Shown piece after piece: positions 12,192 to 17,625 of a stretch of DNA of 28,596 bases. The notes below the pieces were generated by a model. The model worked only from the letters and a program-made list of their open reading frames with translations. It made no database searches and was not told the DNA's origin. The stretch's first letter is position 1. Each line of letters opens with the position of its first letter. Source of the DNA: a virus; the IMG/VR virus record IMGVR_UViG_3300007540_000075, positions 1 through 28,596 of that record. One strand, 5' to 3'. The position numbers were made by a program, and so were the translations under genes.

Positions 12192-13279
12192 TGGCTTTTA
12201 AACTTAAGCACTTTTTAGCTGGTGCAGCAACAGAAGCAACCAACATTAATGAAGAACGCCGTAAGCGTGCCATGGAAATGCTTCAGGCTTCTATGGAGAT
12301 GCAGGGTAAATCGCTTTTAAATGACAACAAAGCACGTAAAGAACAAGGCAAAGAATTAGAAGTTGCTGCGGCGGGGCTGCGCAGATTAAATCTCAACGAT
12401 GCGCAGATTAATCGTGTTTTAAATGAAGGCGTTGATTTTGCTAACGATTTTGTAGAGAAGGCACCAATAGCAGCTAAAGCTAGAGGAGTCACTCCAGATA
12501 TATTTGTGACCATTGCAGACCCAGATGCCCCGCTAATTCCCGTAAGTGAATACATTAATAGAGGTGACATTGCTGGACGTGTTGAGGTTGGCTCATTTAA
12601 GCGTGTTGAAGGGTTGCCTAAATCTATCTTTGGTGGCACTTTCGACGTTGAACAAGATCAAACGATCAAACAGTATTCAAGCACTACTGGTTTGCCTATT
12701 GATGAAGCGCCACAAGAACGTATTTCCGCCCCCAAAGGTACTATTGACATCATGGGAATGATACCGGGAGAGACGCCTGAAGGTTTTGGGCTAACCCCTA
12801 ATACTATATTTACAGCGGCTACTGACAAAATAGCTTCAGTGATGGGGCTAAAGGCAGGTGATTTTTTGGCGGATGGCACAAGAGCATGGACAAGCGACGT
12901 ACCAGCTAACAATATAAAATATCAGAATGCGCGTTTGGACCTAGCAAGAAGAGCGAATAACATAAAATTAGCAAACCCGAATACATCAGATATTGCAGTG
13001 GTGGCTCGTGCTATACAAGAATTTGAGGCTGACAATCCTGAGTTGTTTGAAGCCAGAAATGATGGATCTGACGATACGTCAGGTGGGGCAGTTACTGGCG
13101 GGGCAGTTACTGGCGGGGATGCCTTACAAAAAGCACTTGCCAAAGGAAGTCCAGCGCAAGTTGCGGCAGAGCTTTCTAAAGATCCTGGGAATGCAGGCAA
13201 AAGCCGGGAAGAGATAAATAAAATGGCAGCAAAATTGCTAAGCCAATACAAAGGTAGTGCAGCGGCGGGTGCTAGATAA
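12191..13279 (+). CDS. Internal virion protein, mid-size
   Basis: 362 residues. The N-terminal ~100 residues are helical and charged (EERRKRAMEMLQASMEM), the middle is mixed (PDIFVTIADPDAPLIPVSEY), and near residue ~270 there is a gly-rich linker with two identical GGAVTG units from a 15-bp tandem repeat at ~13084-13120. The C-terminus is helical (PAQVAAELSKDPGNAGKSRE). Lies between the 172-residue protein and the 1047-residue ejection-like protein, joined by TAATG at both ends. Comparable in place to T7 gp14/gp15, though no similarity can be shown. Confidence 0.55.
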   Translation: MAFKLKHFLAGAATEATNINEERRKRAMEMLQASMEMQGKSLLNDNKARKEQGKELEVAAAGLRRLNLNDAQINRVLNEGVDFANDFVEKAPIAAKARGVTPDIFVTIADPDAPLIPVSEYINRGDIAGRVEVGSFKRVEGLPKSIFGGTFDVEQDQTIKQYSSTTGLPIDEAPQERISAPKGTIDIMGMIPGETPEGFGLTPNTIFTAATDKIASVMGLKAGDFLADGTRAWTSDVPANNIKYQNARLDLARRANNIKLANPNTSDIAVVARAIQEFEADNPELFEARNDGSDDTSGGAVTGGAVTGGDALQKALAKGSPAQVAAELSKDPGNAGKSREEINKMAAKLLSQYKGSAAAGAR

Positions 13280-16200
13280 TGAGCTATAACGAAAACAGAC
13301 CTGACTTTTTAACTAAAGATGTCCTCACCCAAGATGAAAACTTCATAAACGATGCGTCTGCCTTTTTGTATAAGCGTACTGGTGAGGTGCTGACTGAGCC
13401 AGAAAAAGTATACGAGAAGTATCTTGAGCATATGCGCATCTCTGACGTTAATGAAGCAACAACTGTGCAGGACTATTACTACGCCCAACGAGCAGAAGAC
13501 GAAGACAAAGCTGAGATGGCACGTCTGTACCATGCGTATGACAAGATGGAAATGTTTCGCTCTGGGGAAGGTGTAGGTGACGCATTTAATAGGTTTACCG
13601 ACTACGCCGAAGGGATTTTAACTGCACCGTCTACAATTATCGGCGTCTTGACTGGTGGTGCAGGTAAAGCTGGGGCCATGGTCGGACAAGCAGTTGCTAA
13701 AACAGCAATCCGTAAGGCATTAATATCTGGATTAACTAAGAAGGGCGCACTTCGTGCGGCAGGTGTTGAGGGTGGTGTTGCTGCTGTGCAGGACATTGGA
13801 CGCCAAGCAACTCAGCTAGAGTTGAGTGATGATACCGGAGTAACTATACGTGAAGAATATTCTCCATTAGAAACGGGCATCAATGTCACTTTGAGTTCTG
13901 GTTTAGGTGGAGCACTTGGTGGTGCTGCTTCATATAGAGGTGCCGTGCAAGAAGCTACTGCACAGAGACGTGCAGCAATAGGTCTGGCCGCTGAAAAGCG
14001 TGGCGTAGCCCCTGCAGTAGAAGAAGCAAAGAAAGTATTAGAAGAATCTAAGCTAAACATACGTCCCATTGATGAGCTAAAAGTTCAACTTGGTGACAAG
14101 ATCCGTTCAGAAAAACTACTCACTCCGCTTGAGTCTGTCATTGCTCAGTTAGACGATGATACAACAACACGTATTCAAGCTGCTGCAACTGAGTTTGCAG
14201 AAAACATTGATATTAAGACATACCAAGATGGCACACGTCAGTCGATCACTGAAGCGATTGCAGATGCAATTGGTACAGAGAAGCTGGGAACAGACCGCTG
14301 GTCAACTATTTTAGATAAATATAAATTAACGAATGAGCAGTTCGGCTTAGTGTTTGCTGCCGATGTCTCTCGTGCCGCACGGTTAATGAACAAGCAAAGC
14401 CAGATTGCCCGCGTTAAAGCATTAACTTCCGGAATTGAAAGCATTGCAAGTAAGGTAGAAGGATCTGTAGGCGAGGATGCTTTAAATCAATACAGTGCAA
14501 TGAATGAAGCATTGAAAAGTTTTGCGTCTGGCGCACAAGGATTTGAGCGTATGCGCCGAGCAATGATGACATCAATGTTGCAGACAACTCAGCGGAACAT
14601 TGTTGGGGGCGGAGCACGTATTTTTGTAGATGCTATGAACACACTCAGTGAGCAGACCCTTCGTACAATTACAAGTAAACTAAACATTCCCTACACTGGC
14701 ATTGAGACTCGTGGTGGCGTAGGAGATATCTTTAAGTACATGATTAACCAAGAAGAAGCACAAGTTATTGTGGATGCATATTCACGTCAGATGCCACAGC
14801 AAGCACAGTATTTGTTTAGCAACTTTGTTGATGGTGCTAACTTAGGTGCCCGCACAGGTGCTGGTGGCGCGTTTGAAAAAATGGGTACTTGGTTAAACTT
14901 TGCCAACAGATACGCAGATAACTATTATAAAAGGGCTATCTTTTCCGGTGAATTGAACCGGCTAGCTAAAGTAAAATTCGACAAAGACATTATTCAACTC
15001 TTGCAAGATGGGGAATTTAATAAGATTACCCCTGATATGTTCAAGTACGCATCTGACAAATCATTAGAACTTTTGTATCAAAAGACGCCGAGCAAAAAAA
15101 CTGCTGCGGGCAGAGTAGCCAATACTTACTTAGATATTGATAAAATGGCTGGCGTAGGCATGCTTACTGGTCTTGTACTGCCATTCCCCCGTTTTGTATT
15201 CAATCAAATTAAATTCATGACTGAGTATGCACCTGCCATTGGTTTGATGATGCCCGGAGCGACTACCTCACAGAAACTTGCTAAGCAGTTGACTGGATTT
15301 GGTCTCATAGGTGGATTTGCTGCATTCAGGTCAACCCAACCCGACGGCAGTAACTGGTATGAATATACCCGTGAAAATGGACAGACGGCGGACTTACGGC
15401 CAACATTAGCAGGGCTAACACTGCCGTTGTATCTTGGGGACATTCTTCACAGATATATGACCGGGCAACCAAACGAAGTTGACAGCGAGGACTATGGAAA
15501 GATACTTAAGCAAGTGCAGGAGTTATCTTTAGGCACTGCATTTCGTGCAGGACAGGGCACGGCGTTAACAGATAGGTATATACCAGACGCACTTGGTGCG
15601 GTATTTGGTGAAGGCGAATTAGACATAGGTTCAGCAAAATTCTTTGGAACTGCAATTGGCGATTACGCCGCAACATTTTCTTATTCAATGCCTATGGGTA
15701 TTGCCCGTGACTTATACCAAATGACAGCTGAAGAAAATCGTCAAGTGGGAGAGACACGTGAAGGTATTACATTTTATGAAATCTTTAAGATGCGGGCTAC
15801 TCGTGGATTACCTGAACCAATGCGTCCGGAAAGGTCTCCTCGCTATGAGATCACTTCCCCGCAACCAACCCGTGTCGAGCTTCCATTATCTGCCCCAGTA
15901 ACAGGTATGACAATTTCACGTGCAAAGAATGCATTAGAAGAAGAGATGACTCGTCTGAAGCTTACTTCTTATGATCTGTACAAGCCAGTGCCATTCGGAC
16001 CTGCAGATGTAGCTATCCGCAAAGCATTGTCAGAACAATTGCCTCAGTATGGTGTTGCTGCTATTCAATCTGAGCGGTACCGTTCTGCGGACACTGATGG
16101 TGAGCGTAAAGAATTGTTACGTAATGAATTGCGTAGCAAAGTTAACGAAATTAAAAACGATGCATTTGAAGATCTGCGTGCTCGCATTAAGAGTGGTGAA

Positions 16201-16422
16201 GAGACTCGCTTCACAGTTGAAGATGTACTTAGATTTGAATTTGAATCTACCGGCACAAAGGCGCAGAGAAGGGACTTCAAGCCATTGTTTAAGAAACGTA
16301 CCGGGCAAGAGTTCAATGACTCTGACCCTGAAATGCTCAAGCGTGGTTTGATTATTCTTCAGGATTACATTGAGAGCACTAAGAGACTTGCTAAAGGCGG
16401 ATTAATGTCCCCGCGCAAATAA
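13279..16422 (+). CDS. Large internal virion / DNA-ejection protein (T7 gp16 analogue)
   Basis: 1047 residues, last gene of the rightward block. Residues ~110-220 contain three small-residue-rich hydrophobic stretches (IIGVLTGGAGKAGAMVGQAV, GVEGGVAAVQDIG, LSSGLGGALGGAASY) able to insert into membrane. Another hydrophobic region lies at ~620-690 (MLTGLVLPFPRFVFNQIKF, GFGLIGGFAAF). The rest is long and helical. Size, position after smaller internal proteins, and amphipathic segments match the T7 gp16 class that forms the trans-envelope ejection channel. I see no N-terminal lytic transglycosylase motif, unlike T7 gp16. The C-terminus ends KGGLMSPRK. The stop lies next to the converging terminator. 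Confidence 0.65.
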   Translation: MSYNENRPDFLTKDVLTQDENFINDASAFLYKRTGEVLTEPEKVYEKYLEHMRISDVNEATTVQDYYYAQRAEDEDKAEMARLYHAYDKMEMFRSGEGVGDAFNRFTDYAEGILTAPSTIIGVLTGGAGKAGAMVGQAVAKTAIRKALISGLTKKGALRAAGVEGGVAAVQDIGRQATQLELSDDTGVTIREEYSPLETGINVTLSSGLGGALGGAASYRGAVQEATAQRRAAIGLAAEKRGVAPAVEEAKKVLEESKLNIRPIDELKVQLGDKIRSEKLLTPLESVIAQLDDDTTTRIQAAATEFAENIDIKTYQDGTRQSITEAIADAIGTEKLGTDRWSTILDKYKLTNEQFGLVFAADVSRAARLMNKQSQIARVKALTSGIESIASKVEGSVGEDALNQYSAMNEALKSFASGAQGFERMRRAMMTSMLQTTQRNIVGGGARIFVDAMNTLSEQTLRTITSKLNIPYTGIETRGGVGDIFKYMINQEEAQVIVDAYSRQMPQQAQYLFSNFVDGANLGARTGAGGAFEKMGTWLNFANRYADNYYKRAIFSGELNRLAKVKFDKDIIQLLQDGEFNKITPDMFKYASDKSLELLYQKTPSKKTAAGRVANTYLDIDKMAGVGMLTGLVLPFPRFVFNQIKFMTEYAPAIGLMMPGATTSQKLAKQLTGFGLIGGFAAFRSTQPDGSNWYEYTRENGQTADLRPTLAGLTLPLYLGDILHRYMTGQPNEVDSEDYGKILKQVQELSLGTAFRAGQGTALTDRYIPDALGAVFGEGELDIGSAKFFGTAIGDYAATFSYSMPMGIARDLYQMTAEENRQVGETREGITFYEIFKMRATRGLPEPMRPERSPRYEITSPQPTRVELPLSAPVTGMTISRAKNALEEEMTRLKLTSYDLYKPVPFGPADVAIRKALSEQLPQYGVAAIQSERYRSADTDGERKELLRNELRSKVNEIKNDAFEDLRARIKSGEETRFTVEDVLRFEFESTGTKAQRRDFKPLFKKRTGQEFNDSDPEMLKRGLIILQDYIESTKRLAKGGLMSPRK

Positions 16423-16443
16423 AAAACCCCTCATTGCGAGGGG
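16421..16443 (-). terminator. Intrinsic terminator of the leftward block
   Basis: On the minus strand, a 6-bp stem (CCCCTC / GAGGGG, loop GCAAT) is followed by six T. On the plus strand the stem is followed by no T run, so it should stop leftward transcripts only. It abuts the stop codon of the 1047-residue gene, protecting the late block from antisense transcription. Confidence 0.85.
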
Positions 16444-16512
16444 CTTGGAGAGTGTAGCCAGCACGGATGTACTGACTAGCAGGTGGGACTGTTAGCCAAT
16501 TGGCATATCCTC
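16421..16512 (-). ncRNA. Candidate small structured RNA between the converging blocks
   Basis: The gap after the 35-residue gene contains a strong sigma70-type promoter, then about 90 bases without a meaningful reading frame, then an intrinsic terminator. From the predicted start (near 16512): a palindrome GCCAATTGGC (16504-16495), a 10-bp stem with two G-U pairs and a 4-base AUCC loop (16478-16455), an unpaired pyrimidine-rich CUCUCC (16452-16447), and the terminator hairpin. The CUCUCC can pair with GGAGAG-type ribosome sites, such as that of the gene at 27988-28209. A four-codon frame (M-P-I-G) starts near the 5' end. The transcript is predicted, not observed; it could instead be a read-through 3' end. 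Confidence 0.55.
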
Positions 16513-16518
16513 TATATA

Positions 16519-16546
16519 GTTATAGCAATAGTTTATCAAATGTCAA
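16519..16546 (-). promoter_or_regulatory. Sigma70-like promoter (TTGACA-N16-TATAAC)
   Basis: On the minus strand, TTGACA at 16546-16541 and TATAAC at 16524-16519 are 16 bases apart. A second TTGACA at 16559-16554, which overlaps the stop codon of the 35-residue gene, has a weaker -10 (ATAAAC, 16536-16531) at 17 bases. Both point to the candidate small RNA. The -10 and spacing are the same as those of the promoter at 17687-17714. Confidence 0.7.
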
Positions 16547-16555
16547 TAGTATTTG

Positions 16556-16663
16556 TCAATTGGTATTCCTTAGCTTTCTACGTAGATGTCTAATTACAGT
16601 CTCCATTTCTTTCATGCGTTTCTTGAGTTCTTCAAATTCTTGTCTAATTTGATTCTCGCTCAT
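16556..16663 (-). CDS. 35-residue coiled-coil microprotein, coupled to nrdB
   Basis: Frame of 35 codons whose ATG overlaps the nrdB stop (ATGA). The product is nearly all helix: MSENQIRQEFEELKKRMKEM then a basic end RHLRRKLRN. Hydrophobic positions repeat in a heptad-like way, as in a short coiled coil. The ATGA coupling and the clean use of the interval up to the promoter support a real gene. A partner is unknown; NrdB is the obvious one to test because the two are co-translated. Confidence 0.55.
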   Translation of the reverse strand: MSENQIRQEFEELKKRMKEMETVIRHLRRKLRNTN

Positions 16664-17625
16664 GCAGCACTACCCCATCCCCAGTCATCACCTGAAATGC
16701 CGGCGGCATTGTAATCTGTTACAACACCCTCAAAGAAATTCTTATGAGAGTCTCCCGCAATGATCCAATCAACCCACGGAAGCGGGTTCTTTTTGACTCC
16801 ATAATTACCTTTAAGTCCGAGCTGGATAAGCCGTCTGTCAGCGATGTACCTAATATAAGATTTAACTTCCTCGGACGACAAGCCTTCCAAGTTACCCATC
16901 TCATACGCCAAATCAATAACCGCATCTTCCAGAGACACAGCATTCCGTACCATCTGGTAGATATCGCCTTTGAAAGCGTCTGTAACGATGCGAGGATGCT
17001 CCTCACAGAACGTGCGGAACAGTCTAACCATCCCTTCACAGTGCATTGATTCATCTCTAATTGACCACTCTACAATCTCACACATGCCCCGCATCTTGCC
17101 ATAACGCTGGTAGTTCAACAGCATTACGAATGCACTGAACAGAGACATGCCCTCATTAATCACTGATCGTGCCACAGCCTTGCACAAGCCTGACTGTGTG
17201 CCCACGTCAATGTCTGACATAAACTCTAGTTTATCACTCATCTCTTGTACGGCGGCAAACGCCGAGAACTCGGACTCGGGCAAACCTAACGTATCATTAA
17301 GTAGAGCGTAGCTCCGCTGATGCACAAATTCACGATTAGCAAAGCTAGTAAGCATAGCCCGTATTTCGTTATTCTTAAACTTAGGGATGTAAGATTCCAA
17401 GTAGTTAGTTCCGACTTGGACATCCGATTGAGTAAAGAGTCTAAGGATTTGCGTAATATGGTTTCGTTCTGCATCAGTCAACTTCCCATTGTTCCACTGG
17501 GCAACATCGTCTTGTAGCTTAGCTTCCCACTCGCCCCAGTGCGCCTTCTCTGATTTAATTGCGTATTCCACAGCCCATGGATAACTAAATGGCTTGTAAC
17601 TCTTTGATTCTTCTAGCAATGCCAT
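16660..17625 (-). CDS. nrdB: Ribonucleotide reductase class Ia, small (R2) subunit
   Basis: 321 residues. Carries the full diiron-tyrosyl set with E. coli spacing: D68, E99, H102, radical tyrosine Y106 (REFVHQRSY), E158 (INEG), E192 and H195 (RDESMH). It generates the tyrosyl radical passed to NrdA for reduction of ribonucleotides. It is shorter than E. coli R2 (~375), mostly from a short C-terminal tail (DDWGWGSAA), so the R1-binding end is unusual. The start ATG has only a GGGG eight bases upstream. nrdB is separated from nrdA by five small or mid-size genes and by its own promoter-terminator element, so the two subunits may be expressed at different levels. Confidence 0.92.
   Translation of the reverse strand: MALLEESKSYKPFSYPWAVEYAIKSEKAHWGEWEAKLQDDVAQWNNGKLTDAERNHITQILRLFTQSDVQVGTNYLESYIPKFKNNEIRAMLTSFANREFVHQRSYALLNDTLGLPESEFSAFAAVQEMSDKLEFMSDIDVGTQSGLCKAVARSVINEGMSLFSAFVMLLNYQRYGKMRGMCEIVEWSIRDESMHCEGMVRLFRTFCEEHPRIVTDAFKGDIYQMVRNAVSLEDAVIDLAYEMGNLEGLSSEEVKSYIRYIADRRLIQLGLKGNYGVKKNPLPWVDWIIAGDSHKNFFEGVVTDYNAAGISGDDWGWGSAA

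Follow-up and report, generated by a model that had tools for sequence, protein, structure and literature searches.

A candidate autonomous small RNA gene behind nrdB in an uncultured marine phage, with a probable relationship to the 3′ end of phage rmf mRNA

PreS of lambda (~88 nt) and VpdS of VP882 are trans-acting small RNAs (sRNAs) of phages, and StxS of Stx phage is a further short trans-acting phage RNA (review PMC12197685). In this study, a predicted sRNA of ~92 nt at 16421..16512 on the minus strand, behind the gene nrdB, was analyzed in the window, the whole 28,596-nucleotide stretch of IMG/VR virus record IMGVR_UViG_3300007540_000075. The evidence base was sequence only, and the relatives were metagenomic contig fragments. 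The window RNA is like PreS and VpdS in size and intergenic phage origin, and base pairing in trans is proposed for it. However, PreS and VpdS belong to temperate phages of enterobacteria or vibrios and depend on Hfq, while the window RNA had no homology to either and no match in Rfam. RaiZ of Salmonella is an sRNA derived from the raiA mRNA 3′ end (PMC5391140). Both RaiZ and the window RNA have a terminator at the 3′ end, but RaiZ is bacterial and processed from an mRNA, whereas the window RNA is phage-borne and predicted to stand alone under a promoter of its own. No sequence similarity of the two was seen, no comparison aimed at it having been made. StxS is a promoter-proximal terminated transcript that precedes other phage genes in the lysogen, whereas no gene follows the window RNA. 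AbcR and NfeR1 are alphaproteobacterial anti-Shine-Dalgarno sRNAs with C-rich unpaired seeds. The window RNA shares a C-rich unpaired stretch with them, but GGUGGG, the complement of its CCCACC, differs from canonical Shine-Dalgarno sequences. No homology was found, and the window RNA was not assigned to this group.

A total of 80 related loci were collected via NrdB. Behind nrdB, the closest relatives shared the promoter and carried either of two RNAs, named class A and class B. The window RNA belonged to class A, with the layout CCCACCYGCTAG, hairpin, linker, and terminator. The earlier note on this DNA had proposed an autonomous RNA here, and the comparison upheld it: class A is well supported as an autonomous small RNA gene by its conserved promoter, covarying stem, terminator, synteny, and retention in four lineages without the open reading frame (ORF) that precedes it in other relatives. 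We consider it fairly probable that this autonomous RNA acts in trans through a C-rich 5′ candidate seed, and that it is probably related to the RNA in the 3′ untranslated region (3′-UTR) of a phage rmf mRNA.

The class A alignment contained 8 distinct sequences, with the diverged L044 in addition. In the 10-bp stem, 80/80 cells were paired with no broken pair, and 4 pairs had two-sided changes. For stem and terminator together, pairing was 152/152 cells, with two-sided changes in 4 stem and 2 terminator pairs. None of 500 shuffles reached the observed pairing level, and slid controls had 29–50% of cells paired. Since the earlier patterns could favour pairing, the less biased pattern CCCACCYGCTAG-N18-CTAC was scanned over 2.9 million viral contigs; of the stem, it prescribes no more than the three outer pairs and leaves most positions free. 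It gave 21 matches. Fourteen were class A loci that had both promoter and terminator and were each 10/10 paired; representatives of the distinct sequences were read, the remainder being copies. The other 7 were background, paired at 5–7/10 positions and without promoter or terminator. Loss of stem pairing in related phages had been named in advance as a result that would refute the RNA; pairing was kept, with compensating changes. By this covariation, the class A RNA structure is under selection. Searches with the covariance model R1 of class A, and likewise with model R2, found one copy per contig at the same syntenic place, the slot behind nrdB.

On IMG/VR, a wider class A pattern gained a single sequence, the diverged L044; its eight other matches were unrelated and lacked this layout. 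Rfam gave no family match at gathering or relaxed thresholds, BLAST searches of isolate phages with both classes returned only terminators or chance matches, and the class patterns had no match in bacterial genomes. Because matches were absent from Rfam, isolate phages, and bacterial genomes, while phage sRNAs of the size of PreS and VpdS are known, class A would be a new RNA family among already known phage sRNAs, in an unusual evolutionary setting. Few small RNAs of marine phages outside cyanophages have been described, and class A is defined by covariation in a clade related to the abundant HMO-2011 group.

The 92-nt RNA had a predicted fold of −35.1 kcal/mol (z = −3.6), equalled by 0/200 shuffles, and matched model R1 with 93.3 bits. 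Its 5′ stretch (16492..16512, minus strand as for all parts of the RNA) was variable; relatives had an ORF resembling ribosome modulation factor (RMF) there (L001, L009, L012, L013, and L016) or almost nothing (L008 and L044). Next came the C-rich unpaired stretch CCCACCUG (16480..16487; columns 5–12 of alignment A1), the candidate seed. The 10-bp covarying stem (16455..16478) consisted of arms 16478-16469 and 16464-16455 and an AUCC loop (16468-16465). It was followed by the linker (16447..16454) with CUCUCC (16452-16447), which was not conserved, and by the intrinsic terminator (16421..16446), with a stem at 16446-16424, a GCAAU loop, and six U (16426-16421). The terminator was also present in class B RNAs, and its sequence was common in other phages. 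The sole frame within the RNA, ATG-CCA-ATT-GGC-stop, was negligible. These parts agreed with the earlier note, which had described two TTGACA boxes on the minus strand, the second as TTGACA-N16-TATAAC, then ~90 nt without a useful frame, a 10-bp stem with AUCC loop at 16478-16455, unpaired CUCUCC, a six-U terminator, and no downstream gene for the promoter to serve; no co-oriented gene was found after the sRNA.

The RNA start was predicted near 16512 from TTGACA-N16-TATAAC (16546-16519, minus). The −35 box TTGACA was at 16541..16546 and the −10 box TATAAC (TATAACTA) at 16519..16524, 16 bases downstream. The upstream second TTGACA (16554..16559, minus), with TAAACT at spacing 18, was less conserved, and relatives retained the downstream promoter of the two. 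Because the upstream box overlaps the stop of a 35-amino-acid (aa) ORF, the convergent gap is shorter than it appears. A promoter of at least 11/12 matches was found once in the window, compared with 1.2 expected in shuffles, and was not significant alone. The significance of the sRNA promoter comes from the spacing, which was fixed across copies in related contigs: TTGAC[AT]-N-TATAACTA had 25 sites in 7 contigs (window, G001, G002, G003, G004, G007, and G014), with N = 16 in 25/25 and no other spacing within 10–24. On these counts, TTGAC[AT]-N16-TATAACTA is a phage-wide promoter class, of which the sRNA carries one copy.

The earlier note had taken CUCUCC as an anti-Shine-Dalgarno stretch for GGAG(A/G) sites. 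This did not hold, since the linker varies in relatives (AUAACCCA, GUUUCAAC, CACACUCA, and CAUUCUAA). The invariant unpaired stretch was CCCACCYG upstream of the hairpin, with CCCACC and G unchanged in the 8 distinct sequences. It was unpaired in the models; in the window, its first Cs can pair with the 5′ end, which is longer there. In L008 and L044, the start of CCCACC and the predicted 5′ end are 3–4 nt apart, as is usual for sRNA seeds, and in L008 only a few bases lie between the −10 box and the motif. CCCACCYG is thus the best seed candidate, being invariant, predicted unpaired, and close to the expected 5′ end in the shortest members. In the proposed mechanism, host RNA polymerase would make a discrete RNA of ~60–92 nt, which the hairpin and terminator would stabilise, perhaps with host Hfq or ProQ. 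Located at the 5′ end or close to it, the C-rich stretch would pair in trans with G-rich, GGUGGG-like sequences close to the ribosome sites of mRNAs; these mRNAs would more probably be the host's than the phage's, and the pairing would lower their translation. Two other functions were considered and rejected. A CsrA sponge did not fit, as the loop on the RNA strand is AUCC without GGA. Antitermination of the nrdB leader by pairing of CCCACC with GGUGGG in its terminator did not fit either, as the leader stem varies (GCCGGG, GCCGCC, and GCCACC) while the seed is constant.

An ORF of ~58 codons was present between promoter and hairpin in L001, L009, L012, L013, L016, and their copies. It scored 28.7 and 28.3 bits against Pfam PF04957 (ribosome modulation factor), marginally above the cut-off of 27.9; these RMF-like genes lie at 5123-5299 in L013 and 5123-5290 in L001, and in the copies. 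The ORF ends in CCC ACC CGC TAG, codons that make up the conserved motif and the opening bases of the stem. In these relatives, the RNA occupies the 3′ end of the mRNA and overlaps the stop codon. Diverged RMF-like homologues below the Pfam cut-off were found by tblastn in HMO-2011 (annotated as hypothetical), CRP-1, and CRP-345; a survey of HMO-2011-type phages (PMC9038755), searched for both terms, names neither ribosome modulation factor nor promoters. The window, L008, L029, and L044 kept promoter and RNA with the RMF-like ORF absent. In the nrdB tree, well-supported branches required a total of four separate changes for these four ORF-less lineages, and classes A and B alternated repeatedly; the tree is of a single gene, and recombination around nrdB may inflate the change count. 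The window retained the rmf-like last codons in frame (ANSPTC-stop), a remnant that fits loss of the ORF. The results suggested a probable relationship between the sRNA and the 3′ end of phage rmf mRNA. ORF with RNA, RNA alone, and a replacement RNA at one locus would form a natural test case for the change from a 3′-UTR RNA to a free-standing sRNA. A broader proposal, speculative and rather doubtful in our estimate, is that the place behind nrdB is an exchangeable regulatory slot under one phage promoter, in which RMF-like protein with RNA, RNA A alone, or unrelated RNA B would all serve the same step in the takeover of host translation, the sRNA gene being an rmf-type 3′ end freed from its ORF.

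Several points weigh against a trans-acting RNA with a C-rich seed. Support for the RNA comes from sequence, and class A is narrow, with 8 close and 1 diverged sequence. In ORF-bearing relatives the conserved motif is partly coding as well. Typical Hfq terminators have a longer U run than the six found here. Heptamers complementary to the RNA were not enriched at phage start regions (3 compared with 1.7 expected, one being its own complement), and self-targets there gave no convincing shared ortholog. Host targets are favoured because of this lack of enrichment.

The close link with rmf also allows the RNA to be a cis 3′-UTR element that protects or regulates phage rmf mRNA, with the window copy as a relic after ORF loss. 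Consistent with this, many relatives have the RMF-like ORF, which scores above the Pfam cut-off, after the promoter and ahead of the RNA; its stop codon forms the first part of the stem, and in-frame codons are left in the window. Relics would decay, however, and promoter, motif, and stem pairing are intact in the four ORF-less lineages, with L008 having few bases from −10 box to motif; a cis element is therefore rather unlikely. Less likely still is a short leader or attenuator module of promoter, hairpin, and terminator, as under antitermination control, with an RNA that is itself functionless. Such modules have a parallel in these phages: the nrdB promoter TTGACT-N16-TATAACTA (window 17714-17625, minus) is followed ~20 nt on by a strong intrinsic terminator ahead of the nrdB start, and outgroup phages have a C-rich stretch, hairpin, and terminator immediately before nrdB. 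The nrdB leader layout was kept in related phages while its terminator stem varied freely in sequence, and it looks like an attenuator or an antitermination-controlled leader. By contrast, the sRNA hairpin covaries and its C-rich stretch is invariant, no co-oriented gene follows, and the convergent gene ends at 16422.

That the RNA is antisense to the 3′ end of this convergent late gene, or to its read-through transcript, is very unlikely. The terminator does overlap the plus-strand stop (16422), and the gene has no plus-strand terminator of its own. Yet the convergent gene differs among relatives while the RNA stays, the RNA is mostly outside the gene, and pairing is conserved rather than complementarity. 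That promoter and terminator fell into the convergent gap by chance, with no RNA gene, is the least probable explanation. It would agree with the 1.2 promoters expected in a window of this length, but at the level of conservation it is already refuted by covariation, fixed promoter spacing, synteny, and the less biased pattern.

Class B comprised 14 distinct sequences with two hairpins, GAGAGAAGCUAC..GUAGCUUUCCCUC followed by GCUGU..CUCAC..ACAGC, and a terminator. Pairing was 98.3% of cells, and the covariation score was higher than in all 500 shuffles; the number of pairs with two-sided changes was not unusual (158/500 shuffles). The class B structure likewise has support, though weaker than that of class A. 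Homology of the two classes, as suggested by cross-matches of R1 and R2, was not accepted, as the matches were mostly the shared terminator. The isolates HMO-2011, CRP-1, and CRP-345 had no significant match to the RNA models, and their convergent gaps contained a terminator only.

Other RNA-like layouts were observed upstream of nrdB. A candidate "class C" RNA lay ~100 bases upstream of nrdB in outgroups L046, L050, L054, L057, L066, L074, L076, L077, and L080, with UUUCUCCC, a hairpin, and then a terminator; its stem changed among GCCGG/CCGGC, GACGG/CCGUC, and GCUAG/CUAGC, and the loop YUGAUCC was nearly kept. The nrdB leader of L039, L040, L043, and L052 had a C-rich stretch and a hairpin with an AC-AUCC-GU tip (AUUCC in L052), without terminator; L039/L040/L043 matched R1 weakly (14.4 bits, E 0.74). 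No such leader was seen before nrdB in pelagiphage isolates and Melnitz, where the annotated genes mostly abut or overlap nrdB.

The sRNA locus lies on the minus strand between nrdB with the 35-aa ORF and the end of a plus-strand gene. The upstream neighbour nrdB (16660..17625, minus), the synteny anchor, encodes the ribonucleotide reductase small subunit (PHROG 86, E 4e-85). The 35-aa ORF (16556..16663, minus; ATG 16663, stop 16558-16556) follows directly, its start overlapping the nrdB stop, and is conserved in relatives. The convergent gene (13279-16422, plus) encodes a 1047-aa protein with no PHROG or Pfam match. No U-tract terminator was seen after its end, and its transcript may cross the sRNA gene as antisense. 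The window DNA polymerase was 52–62% identical over the full length to those of roseophages CRP-345, CRP-1, CRP-603, CRP-2, and CRP-207 and of HMO-2011. Judged by sequence similarity, the window phage and its relatives are an uncultured marine clade related to the HMO-2011 group. The polymerase match points to phages of marine Alphaproteobacteria. HMO-2011, CRP-1, and CRP-2 have an annotated class II ribonucleotide reductase, whereas the window phage has class Ia NrdAB.

The fixed TTGAC[AT]-N16-TATAACTA promoter makes further RNA units of these phages findable by sequence. Tandem phage promoters 180–250 bases apart were observed at G001:C1:26713/26895, G002:C1:19489/19243, G003:C1:10365/10129, and G014:C1:8/255, and ATG often stood immediately after TATAACT of the second promoter. 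The same promoter class was followed by a similar stretch, GTGGCCCC..GGACACCCAC..TTAA, at G001:C1:39949 (plus), G002:C1:7411 (minus), and G014:C1:11930 (plus), which is perhaps a further structured RNA.
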